Below, piece by piece: positions 2,044 through 21,140 of a DNA stretch of 64,000 nucleotides. The number at the start of each line of letters is the position of its first letter. Position 1 is the first letter of the stretch. The position numbers were made by a program, and so were the translations under genes. This DNA is from a virus: IMG/VR virus record IMGVR_UViG_3300044568_006268, positions 62,001 to 126,000 of that record, one strand, 5' to 3'. The notes beneath the pieces were generated by a model. That model was not told where the DNA came from and did not search any database. It worked only from the letters and a program-made list of their open reading frames with translations.

Positions 2044-2116
2044 ACGATACTATAGGACTCGAACCTATACCTTCCAGCTCGCTCGCCGGAATTCTACCAA
2101 ATTAAACTAAATACCA
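2044..2116 (-). tRNA. tRNA-like gene with an 8-nt anticodon loop lacking U33
   Basis: The acceptor (TGGTATT/AGTATCG), D arm and T arm (ATAGG/CCTAT) are tRNA-like. The anticodon stem TTCCGG/CTGGAA closes an 8-nt loop, CGAGCGAG, which contains no U at all. No anticodon can be assigned. It may be a decayed tRNA, a frameshift-type tRNA or a decoy. Confidence 0.55.
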
Positions 2117-2507: not shown

Positions 2508-2514
2508 ATATTAC

Positions 2515-2612
2515 AGGGTTGTTAATTACCTCTTTCGAGGATTTCGGAGTTGAACCGATAGACAAAATTTCAAGTTTCGTGTTTAACCAATAGTTGTTTG
2601 CTGAAACAACCC
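2515..2612 (-). tRNA. aberrant tRNA-like gene, anticodon TGA (Ser?)
   Basis: An exact 8-bp end stem GGGTTGTT/AACAACCC fills the space between two threonine tRNAs. Inside are an anticodon arm CGAAA/TTTTG with loop CTTGAAA (TGA) and a T arm TCGG/CCGA. Extra sequence lies between the T arm and the 3' acceptor strand and forms CCTC-GAAA-GAGG. A 7-bp hairpin GTTGTTT/AAACAAC occupies the D-arm region. It is either broken or an insertion-bearing tRNA. Confidence 0.4.
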
Positions 2613-2617
2613 TTTTG

Positions 2618-3603: not shown

Positions 3604-3700
3604 TGAAGACAATTGGGATCGAACCAATGGCACGCCTATGTTCCTTATCGATCATACCAATAAGTACTGAAGGTTGCTCTACCAACTGAGCTATATCTTC
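3604..3700 (-). tRNA. oversized tRNA-like gene, anticodon not assignable
   Basis: Acceptor GAAGATA/TGTCTTC, D arm GCTC/GAGC and T arm ATTGG/CCAAT are all perfect, but the gene is 97 nt long. The anticodon region holds an 8-bp hairpin CTTATTGG/TCGATAAG as extra sequence. No cut restores a normal arm with U33, so the identity is open. Confidence 0.55.
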
Positions 3701-4809: not shown

Positions 4810-4835
4810 ATATACCTTTTAAGTAGAACCATCAA

Positions 4836-5027
4836 CTATATTTCTGTTGATGATTCTAATTGTCTTAATTTTAAACCTTCTTCAATTGTTTGAATGATGT
4901 CCTCAATTATTTGAGCTCGCGTAACATCAAAGTTACCATTCATTCCATTCAAATCTTTTGCATCAATTGCAATAGATCCTACTGACTTACCGTCTTTCTG
5001 TAATTCAATTACTAATGTATCAAACAT
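4836..5027 (-). CDS. hypothetical protein, 63 aa
   Basis: A small protein beginning MFDTLVIELQKDGKSVGSIA. It lies between the YkuK-like gene and the initiator tRNA inside the tRNA cluster. No family is recognised. Confidence 0.55.
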   Translation of the reverse strand: MFDTLVIELQKDGKSVGSIAIDAKDLNGMNGNFDVTRAQIIEDIIQTIEEGLKLRQLESSTEI

Positions 5028-6486: not shown

Positions 6487-6541
6487 TTTGAAGGACTTGC
6501 ACCTTCTGGACATGGTTTGTTTCGCCTAAGTCGCCATGTCA
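6487..6541 (-). ncRNA. two-hairpin remnant with T-arm-like loop
   Basis: On the minus strand GACATGG/CCATGTC closes a 20-nt loop and is followed by GAAGG-TGCAAGT-CCTTC, which resembles a T arm with G in place of the second T. There is no D or anticodon arm. It is probably a tRNA remnant. Confidence 0.3.
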
Positions 6542-6552
6542 ACAGACCCGAG

Positions 6553-6624
6553 AGGGCAGAGTGAGATTCGAACTCACGACCAGTTGATTAACAGTCAACT
6601 GCTCTACCGCTGAGCTATCCACCC
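6553..6624 (-). tRNA. tRNA-Asn(GTT)
   Basis: Acceptor GGGTGGA/TCTGCCC, D stem GCTC/GAGC, anticodon stem GTTGA/TCAAC with loop CTGTTAA. Confidence 0.93.
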
Positions 6625-6630
6625 TTATTG

Positions 6631-6741
6631 CAGGAATGTAAGGAATCGAACCTTAGCATCTTCCGAGACAGGGAGTAATTTATGCAGAATACAATCTTCG
6701 CAGATTGAGTTTTAAGCGTGCTACCATTACACCACATTCCT
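6631..6741 (-). tRNA. tRNA-Asp(GTC) interrupted by a 40-nt insertion
   Basis: The gene is 111 nt long. Acceptor AGGAATG/CATTCCT, D arm GTGT/GCAC, T arm TAAGG/CCTTA and discriminator G are intact. The anticodon stem is split after its third base. Removing 6674-6713 gives CTTCC-CTGTCTC-GGAAG, a normal Asp arm that differs by one base from the intact Asp tRNA at 8421-8494. The insertion contains a 6-bp hairpin CAATCT-GCGA-AGATTG. It could be an intron or a disabling insertion. Confidence 0.75.
6674..6713 (-). other. 40-nt intron-like insertion in tRNA-Asp
   Basis: The segment interrupts the 5' strand of the anticodon stem. It has a central hairpin followed by TATTCTGCA. The tRNA-Tyr insertion at 6925-6971 has the same order: a 6-bp hairpin followed by TATTCAGCA. 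No group I or group II intron core can fit in 40 nt. Confidence 0.6.
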
Positions 6742-6749
6742 GTATTTTG

Positions 6750-6866
6750 TGGGCTCATATGGGCTCGAACCATAATCTCTTCCTAATGACATCCTACCAT
6801 ACTAAAAAGGAATCGAACCTTAGACTCATTATCGAGAAAGCGCTTTGCCAATTAAGCTAATCGCCC
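6750..6866 (-). tRNA. oversized tRNA-like gene with two T-arm-like hairpins
   Basis: GGGCGAT, a D arm and CTTTC start the gene; GGAAG, T arm TATGG/CCATA and TGAGCCC end it. CTTTC/GGAAG forms a perfect 5-bp anticodon stem if about 45 nt between them are extra. The loop may read GAT (with C33) or CAT. The extra part holds a second T-arm-like hairpin. Only four acceptor pairs form, so it may be broken or chimeric. Confidence 0.4.
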
Positions 6867-6872
6867 ATGTAG

Positions 6873-7004
6873 TGAAGAATCCTAGACTCGAACTAGGAAT
6901 GTCAATTAAGACGCCGGTTTTACATCCTTTAAATTGCTGAATAAACACTTTGCACAGTGTTTGCCTTTTTGGACCGGAGCGTTTACCAATTCCGCCAATT
7001 CTTC
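6873..7004 (-). tRNA. tRNA-Tyr(GTA) interrupted by a 47-nt insertion
   Basis: The gene is 132 nt long. Acceptor GAAGAAT/ATTCTTC is perfect, the D arm and long variable arm are of class II type, and the T stem is CCTAG/CTAGG. Removing 6925-6971 joins CCGGTC to TGTAAAACCGG, giving the normal arm CCGGT-CTGTAAA-ACCGG and an 85-nt tyrosine tRNA. The loop CTGTAAA is identical to that of the intact tRNA-Tyr at 8247-8327. Confidence 0.78.
6925..6971 (-). other. 47-nt intron-like insertion in tRNA-Tyr
   Basis: It lies between positions 32 and 33 of the anticodon loop (the boundary can shift by a base). It contains the hairpin AACACT-GTGCAA-AGTGTT followed by TATTCAGCA, which resembles the hairpin plus TATTCTGCA in the Asp insertion. 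Confidence 0.6.
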
Positions 7005-8230: not shown

Positions 8231-8246
8231 CTTTACTAATTTTTAG

Positions 8247-8327
8247 TGGGCAACAGTGGACTCGAACCACTCCCGTGAGGACCAGATTTACAGTCTGGCT
8301 GCCGTATCCGAACGACTTTTGCGGCCC
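8247..8327 (-). tRNA. tRNA-Tyr(GTA), uninterrupted
   Basis: Class II tRNA with anticodon arm CCAGA-CTGTAAA-TCTGG, long variable arm and T stem AGTGG/CCACT. The acceptor GGGCCGC/GTTGCCC has one mismatch. It is the reference copy for the interrupted tRNA-Tyr. Confidence 0.88.
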
Positions 8328-8410: not shown

Positions 8411-8420
8411 ATTGTAATAG

Positions 8421-8494
8421 CAGTCCTAACGGAATTCGAATCCGCAATCTCTTCCGTGACAGGGAAGCGTCATACGCCAATATGCTGTAGGACT
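8421..8494 (-). tRNA. tRNA-Asp(GTC), uninterrupted
   Basis: Acceptor AGTCCTA/TAGGACT, discriminator G, anticodon arm CTTCC-CTGTCAC-GGAAG. It is the reference copy for the interrupted tRNA-Asp at 6631. Confidence 0.9.
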
Positions 8495-8576: not shown

Positions 8577-8581
8577 AATTG

Positions 8582-8655
8582 CCGAGATGACGGGACTCGA
8601 ACCCGTGACCTTCGCCGTGACAGGGCGACATTGTAACCAACTCTACTACACCTCG
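8582..8655 (-). tRNA. tRNA-Asp(GTC), third gene
   Basis: Acceptor CGAGGTG/CATCTCG, discriminator G, anticodon arm TCGCC-CTGTCAC-GGCGA, T stem ACGGG/CCCGT. Confidence 0.9.
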
Positions 8656-10104: not shown

Positions 10105-11421
10105 TTAACCTTCAGCTTCTTCGGTATCAATTACTCCAGAATCTTTTACGATTCCTTCAAGTACTTTGAATTCGAAAGACTTGAATTTGAATGTTTTGTT
10201 TACCAAACCACCTTCAATTCTTACACAAACTCCTTCTTTGATATGTCTAGTATCTAAGATAGATGGACCAGTTCCGAATGTTTCGACGGTGTTGCTGAAA
10301 TATTCTCGCAAATCTCTATCATCGAATTTATGAGTGATTGCTTCTAATTCGTTTAAGGTTATCGTAGCAACATGTGGTACAGTTTTTACACCTAATTCAT
10401 TACAACGTTTTACAACATCATTCCAAGCATAATCGATAGATTGACCATCTTCATTAGCAAATGTCATACGGTAAACATAAACCTCAGATTGAGTAGGTTC
10501 ACAACCATAAGAATAAGCCATAGACTTACCGTATTGTTTCGTAAACTCTTTATCACCCATTTTGGTTGTATCAACAGATGGCATAATTGCAGCTCCTGTA
10601 GATTCGTAACCTACAATTTCAAAATAAACGGTTTCACCTTTTCTTAAGTTACCTTTGAATAAGTTCATTGCTTTATCTCGGATGGTTGGGTCATGGAATT
10701 GATTTGCGGATTTTGATTCTCCTAAAACAACTCTACGAGTACCATTCAAATAAGCCCATTCTTTGTCGTTGATAGCTAATCCAAATTTAGTAACAAGTTT
10801 TTCTAACCAACCTAATTCTCTAGTCATTTGAACGTGACCAATACGACCTGAAGTACCGTGAAGTTTTTCAGTAATAATGATGTGTTGACCCTTTTCAAAT
10901 TCGTGGATACTCTTACCAAAGTGTCCGGTATCAAAATGTTCTTTGAACATTACAGAAGATCTAGAAACTCGGGTTTTCTTACCTTGATTTTCTCTAGCAA
11001 TTTTAGCCGTATTTGGATTTACATATTTGTTACAGATAGGTACACCTTTCCATTCGTCAAATTCAAATCCTTCTACATCTAAACCAGTTACCATAATGAA
11101 TCCAAAGTAATGTAATGGAACCCAGAAACCATCAGAGATTTCACCTCTAAATTTTTGAGCTCTTACTCTTCGGTTTGCATCGAACATTCCACCTTTCTCA
11201 TCTTTTCTAGCATTTAACTCGGCATCACGATAAAGGTTGTTTGCTTTACAGAACTCATCGGATAACTGACCATCAGATGGAAAGTAAACTCCTAAATGTC
11301 CTTCTAAAGAATCTAAACCAATTACTACTTGATTACCGTGACAAGTTGCTAATTGAACTTTGTCTGCGTTAGGATGTGGTCTCACGTTTGTCAACCTAGT
11401 GACGATTGCATTGTATGCCAT
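10105..11421 (-). CDS. RNA ligase, DraRnl (Rnl5)-like
   Basis: 438 residues. The nucleotidyltransferase motif I is TEKLHGTSGRIG with the adenylated lysine at about 186. Later motifs are FEIVGYE (about 267-273) and EGVCVRIEGG with the motif V lysines near residues 408-418. The N-terminal about 150 residues, starting RLTNVRPHPNADK, match the OB-like domain of the Deinococcus RNA ligase type (DRB0094). Such enzymes seal nicks with a 3'-OH and a 5'-phosphate in RNA using ATP. The gene lies next to the tRNA cluster and directly under promoter copy 4. A role in tRNA repair or splicing is inferred. Confidence 0.88.
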   Translation of the reverse strand: MAYNAIVTRLTNVRPHPNADKVQLATCHGNQVVIGLDSLEGHLGVYFPSDGQLSDEFCKANNLYRDAELNARKDEKGGMFDANRRVRAQKFRGEISDGFWVPLHYFGFIMVTGLDVEGFEFDEWKGVPICNKYVNPNTAKIARENQGKKTRVSRSSVMFKEHFDTGHFGKSIHEFEKGQHIIITEKLHGTSGRIGHVQMTRELGWLEKLVTKFGLAINDKEWAYLNGTRRVVLGESKSANQFHDPTIRDKAMNLFKGNLRKGETVYFEIVGYESTGAAIMPSVDTTKMGDKEFTKQYGKSMAYSYGCEPTQSEVYVYRMTFANEDGQSIDYAWNDVVKRCNELGVKTVPHVATITLNELEAITHKFDDRDLREYFSNTVETFGTGPSILDTRHIKEGVCVRIEGGLVNKTFKFKSFEFKVLEGIVKDSGVIDTEEAEG

Positions 11422-11504: not shown

Positions 11505-11507
11505 TAG

Positions 11508-11618
11508 TAGTCAGAACAGGATTCGAACCTGTATGGTGTTACCTAGAGTACTCAATACAGAGCGGTAAATCGGTTACGAACCATTACTCTTAGCGTCTTC
11601 CAATTCCGCCACCTGACT
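11508..11618 (-). tRNA. oversized class II tRNA, Leu-like, interrupted anticodon loop
   Basis: 111 nt. Acceptor AGTCAGG/TCTGACT, a leucine-type D arm (GCG/CGC), variable arm GGT-AAC-ACC and T arm ACAGG/CCTGT are intact. AGAGTA pairs with TACTCT across about 33 nt that include a hairpin GGTT-CGT-AACC. Depending on the register the anticodon is GAG (Leu) or TGA (Ser). It lies 1.4 kb away from the main cluster. Confidence 0.55.
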
Positions 11619-16939: not shown

Positions 16940-17410
16940 TTAGGCAAGCATATGAAGATTAGTTCTCAAAGCTCCAATAGCAGCATCAAAGGTTTCAAAT
17001 ACCGGTATTCCTGCTCGTGAGCAAATAATATCTACATTACCTTTTCGCCAAAATCCGGTAGGACAACAGACAATTACACGTTGATGAATTGCAGCACATA
17101 CACCTAATTCCATTAATGTGATAGGACTTTTTGTGTCTGGTAAGATATTAAAGAATGCAATATCCGATTCAGTTAATTGAGTCAATTCCCAATTTACTTG
17201 ATGATTGAATTCTGGATTACTTTCCTTTTGTTCCCATGAAGAATCCCAATCATCTCTTCGAGGATTTAAGAAAGTAACATCTTCGTCTTTAAAGATTTCA
17301 GTGATTGCAGTTTGCCAATCTTCGGCAACTCCCATTTCAATGGAACCAGCTAAAAATACGCTGGTTCCATCTATGATTTGGTCTGATGAATTTGGTTTAA
17401 TTACTTGCAT
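16940..17410 (-). CDS. nucleoside 2-deoxyribosyltransferase-like protein
   Basis: 156 residues. SVFLAGSIEMG, FLNPRRDDW, FNHQVNWELTQLTESDIAFF and LMELGVC match the fold and spacing of the nucleoside deoxyribosyltransferase family 2, where the glutamate in MELG is catalytic. It probably acts on nucleosides or on an N-glycosidic bond. Its start overlaps the end of the NAMPT-like gene by 14 nt, which ties it to the NAD unit. Confidence 0.82.
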   Translation of the reverse strand: MQVIKPNSSDQIIDGTSVFLAGSIEMGVAEDWQTAITEIFKDEDVTFLNPRRDDWDSSWEQKESNPEFNHQVNWELTQLTESDIAFFNILPDTKSPITLMELGVCAAIHQRVIVCCPTGFWRKGNVDIICSRAGIPVFETFDAAIGALRTNLHMLA

Positions 17411-18932
17411 TAGACAATTCCATTACTTTAGCTCGGATAGCTGTTAATGTTGTTCGATTATAGAATTTTCCATTTTCATAAATCGTTTGTAAGATACCCA
17501 TATCTTCTTCAGTGTCGTTACATTGAGTTTGAACTACATAAGTTCCATCAACTTCAACAACTGCACATTTACCCTTTAATGACTTTTTAGTACCATCATC
17601 GGTAATTGGATCTTTAAAGATATCGTAACCTACTCCATTTGCCTCAAACCAAGCACCTTTTGCAGCATAACCGAAAGTATCACGAGTTGTAAATTGATAT
17701 GTGAATGAACCTACACCTAATACAATATTCGTTGAAGCAAATCCTTTAGCTTCTAATCTTTCGTAGATTTGGATTTGTCTTTCTAGATTAATTGAGTCTC
17801 CGTAGATAGCACCAATATGTGGATCTAGAACTTTATAACCTTGTTCGTTGATTGTACCACCAAAGATATCCCAAAGTAATTCAATAACACCTTTAAATTC
17901 TGGCACATAAACATCTTCATCAATTTCTTCGGCAGTTAAAAGTTTATCACCTGATTGGTACATTCCTCTTCCGCAAATAATATCTACCGGATCACCTGAA
18001 TCAGGACGAATAACCAATTTACCGTCACGTGACATGATTTGCTCTTTGTTTGCAGGCAAATACTCAGTAATCAATTTCCATAAGTCGAATGTGTCAGCCA
18101 CAATAGAAAGTATTCCTTTATCAAATTCAGTTAACCAATCAGAAATCATTTGTTGTTCACCTACCGTAAAGATTTTAGTAGTTGATACTGAGTGCTCAGA
18201 AGCATTTACTGAATTGATACAAACTTCGTTTTCTGGTTCGTCATAAAAATAACGAGCACCTGGAATAACTATGATTGAGTCAGATCCTCGGAATGAGAAT
18301 GCATGACCTAATCCAGAAGATAAACTATCCCATGGAGAAAGTCCTCTGGCAGAAAAATCATGACATAAGAAGTCGATTAACCAAGCATTTGCAGGATCAG
18401 TTTTCATTACCCATTTAACAAGGTTTCTACGGTATTGTAATGCATAAGTTGCAGATGTAGCTGGTTTCCAAGCTAAAGAAGAGATAATAGTTTCTAAGTA
18501 CAATGTCAACCAAGCAAAACCTTTAACAGTATTGATGAATGTCATATGAGGTACATTAGGATCAGTTTCAATTCCTTCTGGAAGAGCTTTGATACGAATA
18601 GGTAAGTAACCTAAATCATGGAGTGATTCAAAGTGCGAAGCATCGTAAGGCATACCTAAATATTGAGACATATCCACTCCAAATTGAGTAGCTGTTTCTT
18701 TTGGCATGTCGAAGAAATTTTCTTGCCATTCTGCATGCAACCAACTTACCGTTAATTGATGTCCAACCGAAAGAATTTTATTAACACCTTTTGGTGCATG
18801 TTTTAAACTTCTAGGAATCCAAGTTCCATATAAGAAATCTGTACCAGGAGCAAGCATCCTTTTATGGCCGACTTTGTAACCATCAGAATAAAAAGGAGCA
18901 GGTGCTCGAAATGTTTTTTGTAGTTTTAACAT
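17397..18932 (-). CDS. nicotinamide phosphoribosyltransferase-like (NadV/NAMPT, possibly Namat)
   Basis: 511 residues, the usual NAMPT length. Family motifs are FYSDGYKVGHK (about 14-24), YGTWIPRS, SARGLSPWDS, RPDSGDPVD, GAIYGDSINLE and VGSFTYQFTTRDTFG. NAMPT joins nicotinamide to PRPP to form NMN. In the NARP1 phage pathway a homologue (Namat) instead joins nicotinamide to ADP-ribose pyrophosphate to form NAD. A PRPP-synthetase-like gene two operons away makes this alternative plausible. It is first below promoter copy 7. Confidence 0.92.
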   Translation of the reverse strand: MLKLQKTFRAPAPFYSDGYKVGHKRMLAPGTDFLYGTWIPRSLKHAPKGVNKILSVGHQLTVSWLHAEWQENFFDMPKETATQFGVDMSQYLGMPYDASHFESLHDLGYLPIRIKALPEGIETDPNVPHMTFINTVKGFAWLTLYLETIISSLAWKPATSATYALQYRRNLVKWVMKTDPANAWLIDFLCHDFSARGLSPWDSLSSGLGHAFSFRGSDSIIVIPGARYFYDEPENEVCINSVNASEHSVSTTKIFTVGEQQMISDWLTEFDKGILSIVADTFDLWKLITEYLPANKEQIMSRDGKLVIRPDSGDPVDIICGRGMYQSGDKLLTAEEIDEDVYVPEFKGVIELLWDIFGGTINEQGYKVLDPHIGAIYGDSINLERQIQIYERLEAKGFASTNIVLGVGSFTYQFTTRDTFGYAAKGAWFEANGVGYDIFKDPITDDGTKKSLKGKCAVVEVDGTYVVQTQCNDTEEDMGILQTIYENGKFYNRTTLTAIRAKVMELSNASN

Positions 18933-20219: not shown

Positions 20220-21140
20220 TTAAAAAATTGATTGAACTTTAAGTTTGTGCATTTCGTTGTCGTTTGCAAGTGAGAATCCTGCATTGTCTGTTGCATGAAT
20301 AGAATCGGTAGTATAGATTCCATCAAATGTTTCGTTTAAAGGTTTAAGTCCAGCAGAAAATAATCCATGAGTTACTACTAAGAAAATTTTATCATTGAAT
20401 TTATCTTTTGGTCTTTGTAAGCGAATAGCTTTTGCAAGTTCAGTAAAAGTTCTACCACCATCGCAAATATCATCAAGAATAAAGTAAGCTTTGCTATCAG
20501 CATCTTCACCTAGATTAGGCACTTCCGTATGAGTGATTTTACCTGTGGTTATATCTCTATGTTTAGATGCAATTAAGATGTCTTTATTAAAACCTAAAGC
20601 TTCGGCAGCATGATAAACTTTCTTTAGAGCACCTGCATCCGGAGAAACTAACTCAACGTTAGTATAATCACTTTTAGGTAATTTGATTACATTAGCAAAA
20701 TAATCTACTATTGCAAATTGAACAACACCTACATTTGTGAACTTTTCAAAGTTATCTAAACAAGCTTCTAACACATCTGAATGTGGATCTACTACGGTAA
20801 CTTTGTTAAATTTTTGTAGATTGATTATCGGACATACTACATTTTTAAGGTAGTTTACGCTATTTTCTTCGAATCGTCTATCTGACCTAGCTCCTAAAAA
20901 GTAAGGAACGTAAAGTTCAACATGTTCTGAACCTAATTGTCTTAATGTTTGATTAGCCGCAATAATAAGTTCTAAGTCTCTAAATGAATTGAATCGAGAC
21001 TTGATTACTACTCGTTGTAAGGTTTTTTTGAATGCATATCCTTTATTTTCTAAAGTAATCGATTGTTGTCCATCAGGGAATCGAGAGATTTTGAATTGGA
21101 TTTCTGATTTATCAGGGTGTGCTAAATTAAGTACTTTCAT
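20220..21140 (-). CDS. ribose-phosphate pyrophosphokinase-like (Prs; possibly Adps)
   Basis: 306 residues. The PRPP-synthetase family motifs FKISRFPDGQ, GARSDRR, VTVVDPHSD and the PRPP loop FILDDICDGGRTFTELA are present. Prs makes PRPP from ribose 5-phosphate and ATP. In the NARP1 NAD-restoring pathway a homologue (Adps) pyrophosphorylates ADP-ribose instead. A macro-domain gene follows at once and a NAMPT-like gene is nearby. An ACTTACATAAAATC leader precedes the gene; no class A promoter is seen. Confidence 0.88.
   Translation of the reverse strand: MKVLNLAHPDKSEIQFKISRFPDGQQSITLENKGYAFKKTLQRVVIKSRFNSFRDLELIIAANQTLRQLGSEHVELYVPYFLGARSDRRFEENSVNYLKNVVCPIINLQKFNKVTVVDPHSDVLEACLDNFEKFTNVGVVQFAIVDYFANVIKLPKSDYTNVELVSPDAGALKKVYHAAEALGFNKDILIASKHRDITTGKITHTEVPNLGEDADSKAYFILDDICDGGRTFTELAKAIRLQRPKDKFNDKIFLVVTHGLFSAGLKPLNETFDGIYTTDSIHATDNAGFSLANDNEMHKLKVQSIF

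Follow-up and report, generated by a model that had tools for sequence, protein, structure and literature searches.

Probable tRNA-shaped Y RNAs in a phage: a recurrent module in the anticodon arm of tRNA genes and its association with a Ro60-like protein gene

In the small RNA YrlA a basal stem tethers the protein Rsr, and tRNA-modifying enzymes act on a tRNA-like domain of D, T and acceptor parts (PMC8394870). Cleaved tRNAs elicit a response from rsr-yrlBA-rtcBA operons, and the tRNA-like domain of YrlA has been proposed to be a competitive inhibitor of an anticodon nuclease (PMC7790460); TROVE proteins of jumbo phages have been proposed to serve as RNA-repair platforms (PMC7824862). Class I RNA, a further point of comparison, has been reported only in dictyostelids (PMC7919456). 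Here we analyse two interrupted tRNA genes in a window of 64,000 nucleotides (nt), bases 62001-126000 of the virus record IMGVR_UViG_3300044568_006268 (the same virus is our 294-kb contig G001), in which about 35 tRNA genes are arrayed on the minus strand between 1.6 and 9.3 kb. We find that the inserts are probably protein-docking modules of the Y-RNA type, which would make the two genes tRNA-shaped Y RNAs. The element is unreported in the literature searched, a search short of most subscription papers.

The interrupted genes, their inserts and the uninterrupted isoacceptors, which lie within the same array, are as follows.

6631-6741, minus strand: gene shaped like tRNA-Asp(GUC), interrupted in the anticodon stem, 5' strand (28/29 or 29/30), by a 40-nt module
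6674-6713, minus strand: the Asp insert, with stem CAATCT/AGATTG and loop GCGA (6707-6692) and the motif TTCTGCA (6689-6683)
6873-7004, minus strand: gene shaped like tRNA-Tyr(GUA), interrupted in the anticodon loop (31/32 or 32/33) by a 47-nt module
6925-6971, minus strand: the Tyr insert, with stem AAACACT/AGTGTTT and loop GTGCAA (6962-6943) and the motif TTCAGCA (6941-6935); homologue in contig L005 at 6520-6649
8246-8327, minus strand: tRNA-Tyr(GUA), intact
8420-8494, minus strand: tRNA-Asp(GUC), intact; a second intact copy lies at 8581-8655

With introns allowed, ARAGORN predicts a tRNA-Tyr at c[6872,7004] with the 47-nt insert, and cmscan detects the Asp gene at 45.8 bits even with its insert in place. 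An exhaustive scan of boundaries restores a perfect stem and the loop CTGTCTC (CTTCC.CTGTCTC.GGAAG) when 40 nt are removed from the Asp gene, and a perfect stem and the loop CTGTAAA (CCGGT.CTGTAAA.ACCGG) when 47 nt are removed from the Tyr gene. These lengths are those of a first-pass annotation, which had obtained canonical tRNAs by excising 6674-6713 and 6925-6971; its observations that the joined Asp arm differs by one base from the intact tRNA-Asp at 8421, and that the joined Tyr loop equals that of the tRNA-Tyr at 8247, are confirmed as well. It had further described both inserts as a hairpin of 6 base pairs (bp) followed by TATTC(T/A)GCA and had taken them to be related. The relationship stands, on a common hairpin followed by A and TTC(T/A)GCA, and the description needs the correction that the Tyr hairpin has 7 bp. 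We also agree that the inserts are something other than group I or II introns, since Rfam gives no intron match and none to a group I or II catalytic core.

The inserts are not a product of chance, because a homologous 46-nt insert, with TTCAGCAATTT conserved, is found in the tRNA-Tyr of L005, a phage whose RNA ligase is 71% identical; in a second relative, G006, the Gly(UCC) and Tyr genes are interrupted. A look at relatives for the same insertions had been proposed in the earlier annotation, and the design proves to recur in many viral contigs: pattern scans over all IMG/VR contigs gave about 30 tRNA genes from unrelated phages with the module in the anticodon arm, mostly Asp and also Gly, Glu, Asn, Tyr, Pro, Lys and others, and in most of them excision of 40-56 nt gives back the full 5-bp anticodon stem. 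The module of the inserts consists of a hairpin of 5-7 bp, frequently with a single bulged base, then exactly 1 nt and WWCNGCA, with GU after the 5' strand of the stem; the first base of the hairpin loop is G in 31 of 32, and the loop begins with GU in 24.

The 31 matches of a strict form of the pattern fall either in tRNA anticodon arms or in unrelated coding sequence. Three unrelated matches of a first pattern, TTCAGCAN{2,14}GGANGTAAAACCG, were protein-coding and were set aside, as were five matches of the module pattern in bacterial genomes, all chance coding sequence, and a BLAST match to Campylobacter phage CP20, which has neither the module nor DUF2828. The module is absent from T4 rnaC/rnaD, and BLAST with the insert-bearing tRNAs against named phages gave no match, whereas a free-RNA query (below) did match.

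This distribution bears on the proposal, also raised in the first-pass annotation, that a phage element inserts into tRNA genes. In its fuller form, a small element, perhaps spread by GIY-YIG endonucleases, jumped into dispensable tRNA copies that are now pseudogenes. Intact isoacceptors in the same array and GIY-YIG-like open reading frames (ORFs) between the tRNAs of L003 and L005 fit such a history. However, distant phages conserve the stem, the motif and the tRNA arms, target-site duplications are not seen in general, and matches to the canonical pattern occur only in tRNA anticodon arms or unrelated coding sequence. The proposal comes close in outcome, a module placed in the anticodon arm, no evidence of mobility was found, and we consider decay after transposition very improbable.

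When the module is opened at its loop it becomes the terminal stem of free RNAs of 55-110 nt, which lie in the same arrays as the tRNA-embedded modules and have the order stem 3' strand (AGGAUGC-N-WWCAGCAA), interior, stem 5' strand and GU. The interiors are of three types: a lone anticodon stem-loop (Lys UUU, the commonest among those read, Arg UCU, Thr UGU, Asn GUU, Ser GCU, Met CAU and others); other short hairpins; and permuted whole tRNAs in the order T-arm, 3' acceptor, 5' acceptor, D-arm (L151, L135, L035, G033), among them a permuted gene at L035 3765 that is bounded by the module and has an encoded ACCA and a spacer hairpin. Free RNAs are present, unannotated, in Pseudomonas phage Milchi, Vibrio phages EniLVp02 and PhiImVa-1, Aeromonas phage LAh_6 (about 10 copies) and Synechococcus phage BUCT-ZZ01. 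In the terminal stem 98% of cells are paired and two-sided changes number 51, versus 14 when shuffled, in sequences picked by a scan that demanded the stem. A covariance model built from 28 free RNAs, R1, finds one in the window.

2512-2613, minus strand: free RNA with the module as terminal stem (AGGGUUG...CAACCCU-GU, UUUCAGCAAAC), matched by R1 at 32 bits, E 5.5e-6

Inside it are two hairpins, one resembling an anticodon arm and having a GAA loop, the other resembling a T-arm. As a separate observation, at about 4825-4880 (plus strand) of L154 a bare stem, GGGACU/AGUCCC-GCCA, encloses the module and resembles a tRNA cut down to its acceptor stem.

In an all-against-all comparison of ORFs from seven genomes, one protein of about 480 amino acids, usually adjoining free RNAs, was conspicuous: six of the genomes gave matches at E ~1e-86 or better, and in the seventh, Milchi, it was found by a Pfam search. 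It consists of DUF2828 and DUF7788, with the motifs DxSxS and RDxRGGxGER, and 14 records gave no sequence match to PF05731 (TROVE). Its fold was predicted by AlphaFold for the close relative L252, whose protein is 71% identical to that of the window virus (tblastn), with a mean pLDDT of 79.7. Only two PDB entries match the DUF2828 model at E<=0.001: the TROVE domain 9kop (E 4.9e-8, TM 0.60) and Deinococcus radiodurans Ro/Rsr, 2nvo (E 6.7e-6), on which the superposition is loose (TM 0.36).

The genes for the RNAs and for this protein are linked. Across 80 viral loci selected solely for DUF2828, all 47 R1 matches at E<=0.01 lie on the strand of the DUF2828 gene, nearly all of them 3' of it, and 40 of the 47 lie within 500 nt of it, a zone that makes up 8.7% of the bases. 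The set contains near-duplicate loci, and a few of the R1 model sequences were drawn from it, so that a P-value for this test is not to be taken literally; the bias of strand and position is plain. Of 38 whole records, a non-random sample that may include fragments, 22 have RNA and DUF2828, 6 RNA only, 1 the protein only and 9 neither (P 2.5e-4). One contig selected by its ligase alone, G010, has both, about 0.6-0.8 kb apart. The DUF2828 gene of the window virus lies beyond the window, at G001:160569-162002; R1 has four matches at E<1 in the 294 kb, three directly upstream of that gene and the fourth the window RNA at 2512-2613, and the one nearest the gene presents a Lys(UUU) anticodon arm. 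A run of R1 on motif-selected loci was unusable as a negative control, because the motif had picked those loci.

That the RNAs share a module, that this module is linked to the DUF2828 gene and that the protein has a predicted TROVE/Ro60-like fold are results of computation, and from them we infer the following arrangement. The phage would make a Ro60/Rsr-like ring protein (DUF2828 and DUF7788) together with a set of small RNAs sharing one docking module, a 7-bp stem with G(U) after its 5' strand and 1 nt plus WWCNGCA after its 3' strand, to which the protein presumably binds. Each RNA would display a different part derived from tRNA, be it a bare anticodon stem-loop, a circularly permuted tRNA or a whole tRNA, and the window genes would be the un-permuted form, a whole tRNA with the module in its anticodon arm. 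The likeliest purpose might be that of a tRNA or anticodon-arm bait tethered to the ring protein, blunting or repairing the damage of a host tRNA-cleaving defence.

The Asp and Tyr RNAs would on this account stay unspliced and keep their inserts, which is suggested by several features of the module. It serves as the terminal stem in RNAs that have nothing to splice; its distance to the junction is not fixed, the 3' linker being 7-14 nt, and the site of insertion ranges between 26/27 and 33/34; and U33 is retained in all 24 stem inserts, where the loop is contiguous, versus 5 of 8 inserts that split the loop (P 0.011, with the stem and loop classes assigned by hand and some boundaries ambiguous). 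The last contrast would also suit tRNAs that function unspliced, with the module as a tolerated side hairpin that stabilises the RNA or helps it to evade anticodon nucleases, since stem inserts keep the whole loop contiguous with U33 always present. Loop inserts, however, destroy the anticodon loop, and from general knowledge an insert of 40-50 nt in the anticodon arm probably clashes with the ribosome and the synthetases, and we think this very improbable.

Several observations weigh against tRNA-shaped Y RNAs. Six RNA-bearing contigs, which may be fragments, have no detected DUF2828, and G012 and G013 have tRNA-embedded modules yet neither R1 matches nor DUF2828. Excision yields a perfect 5-bp stem and 7-nt loop in most genes, and all 32 genes score as tRNAs once the insert is deleted, both as would be the case for an intron; the latter is mild support only, because shifted deletions often pass ARAGORN too (212 of 320). 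The discriminator bases, judged by eye, mostly agree with the anticodon.

These points lead to the first-pass annotation's other suggestion, a small new intron type. In this case the inserts would be a new class of tiny tRNA introns (40-55 nt). The module would bring about its own removal, either unaided or helped by the Ro60-like protein and a ligase, so that functional tRNAs result; permuted genes would yield circular pre-tRNAs. Besides the exactness with which excision restores canonical arms in most of the 32 genes, the module-bounded circularly permuted tRNA genes (as at L035 3765) speak for it, as do RNA ligases in 13 of 23 carriers. The ligase of the window virus adjoins the array.

10105-11421, minus strand: RNA ligase with an N-terminal PHA02142 OB-fold domain and a PF09414 ligase domain; not in all module carriers

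A common RNA ligase was nevertheless rejected as the splicing factor, the ligase not being universal among carriers (PF09414 is missing from the complete PhiImVa-1) and RtcB being absent from all 23 records. Excision would make no tRNA from those free RNAs that contain an anticodon arm alone, U33 is lost in 3 of the 8 loop inserts, and no bulge-helix-bulge was seen by eye in the interrupted genes; with the variable linkers, the varying sites and the linkage of the free RNAs to a Ro60-like protein gene, like that of Y RNAs, these observations favour docking modules over introns. Splicing is therefore unlikely, and keeps a real minority chance because the restored arms are so good. Rather unlikely, too, is the related conception of the module as a splicing element, about 45 nt long and open to circular permutation, that would be the smallest class of bacterial or phage tRNA intron, possibly excised with the Ro60-like protein, permuted genes giving circular RNAs.

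Other unusual genes occur in and near the array. A class-II tRNA-like gene of 111-123 nt with the acceptor GTCAGG..CCTGAC, predicted, with an insert, as a stop-codon or Thr/Val tRNA, lies at 11507-11618 (minus strand), where it is without the module, and recurs across many viral contigs (L025 543-665, L026 364-486, L027 338-460, and L053, L091, L119, L122, L124 and L138). The tRNA-like gene at 3604-3700 (minus strand) has a span from D-arm to T-arm about 22 nt overlong (CTTCAGTACTTAT...ATAAGGAAC) and is kept, module absent, in the relative L003 (7276-7374). At 6759-6866 (minus strand) parts of two tRNA genes are fused, and since the 5' and 3' acceptor halves are mismatched this is probably recombination debris; a predicted tRNA at 2044-2116 (minus strand) has an 8-nt anticodon loop (agcg) and is possibly a frameshifting tRNA. 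GIY-YIG-like ORFs are repeated between the tRNA genes of the relatives L003 (5500-6180, 7700-8390) and L005 (3270-3900, 4280-4915, 9450-10080); several have the same TTTGTACC-type spacer upstream, and none lies inside a module. Further on, 17397-18932 and 20220-21140 (minus strand) hold an NAD-restoring gene pair, nicotinamide phosphoribosyltransferase and ribose-phosphate pyrophosphokinase.

If the reading as tRNA-shaped Y RNAs is true, it adds a widespread unannotated small-RNA family to many phages and gives DUF2828 proteins a role as Ro60-like holders of RNA, and the arrays of bare anticodon arms point to counter-defence against anticodon nucleases. Among known systems, group I introns of bacterial tRNAs share the insertion in the anticodon arm, but the phage inserts, at 40-55 nt, are far smaller. 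The tRNA introns and permuted tRNA genes of archaea and eukaryotes likewise offer a small anticodon-arm insert and permuted forms; the phage insert differs in lying 5' of the anticodon rather than at 37/38, in its conserved core sequence and in that no bulge-helix-bulge is seen by eye. Besides tRNA, Dictyostelium Class I RNA (RF01414) is the one Rfam family to which phage RNAs show repeated matches, at 19-30 bits versus a gathering threshold of 41.5: a match in one 900-bp stretch has E 0.0023 and 29.8 bits, and five LAh_6 RNAs and one RNA of the window virus also match. The end stem, UUACAGCAA after its 5' strand, an A-rich CC before its 3' strand and the terminal UG align. Class I RNA is eukaryotic and its known partner is the RNA recognition motif (RRM) protein Rnp1A/Cibp; the likeness is a resemblance rather than membership, because all scores are sub-threshold, and it raises the question whether Dictyostelium Class I RNAs are Y RNAs too.

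The closest comparison is with YrlA (RF02553), although the phage RNAs score 26.4 bits against its model, below the gathering threshold of 69. Their putative partner is a DUF2828/DUF7788 protein, not PF05731, their stem is short and followed by WWCNGCA, their interiors include complete anticodon arms, and the window genes are un-permuted tRNAs; a terminal stem joining the RNA ends, a trait of Y RNAs, is found in the free RNAs, whereas the window tRNA genes have the stem as an internal hairpin. Shared with YrlA, by contrast, are an end-joining stem and a permuted tRNA-like interior with the T-arm ahead of the D-arm (in the order of the Rfam model), and shared with the YrlA/Rsr/Ro60 system would be a partner encoded nearby, a predicted TROVE plus vWA ring protein. 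The phage RNAs would thereby extend the YrlA/Ro60 arrangement, the displayed part often being a complete anticodon arm or a complete tRNA, and would suggest an origin for the permuted tRNA of YrlA itself: a tRNA with a docking stem in its anticodon arm, cut at the loop of that stem and joined at the acceptor.
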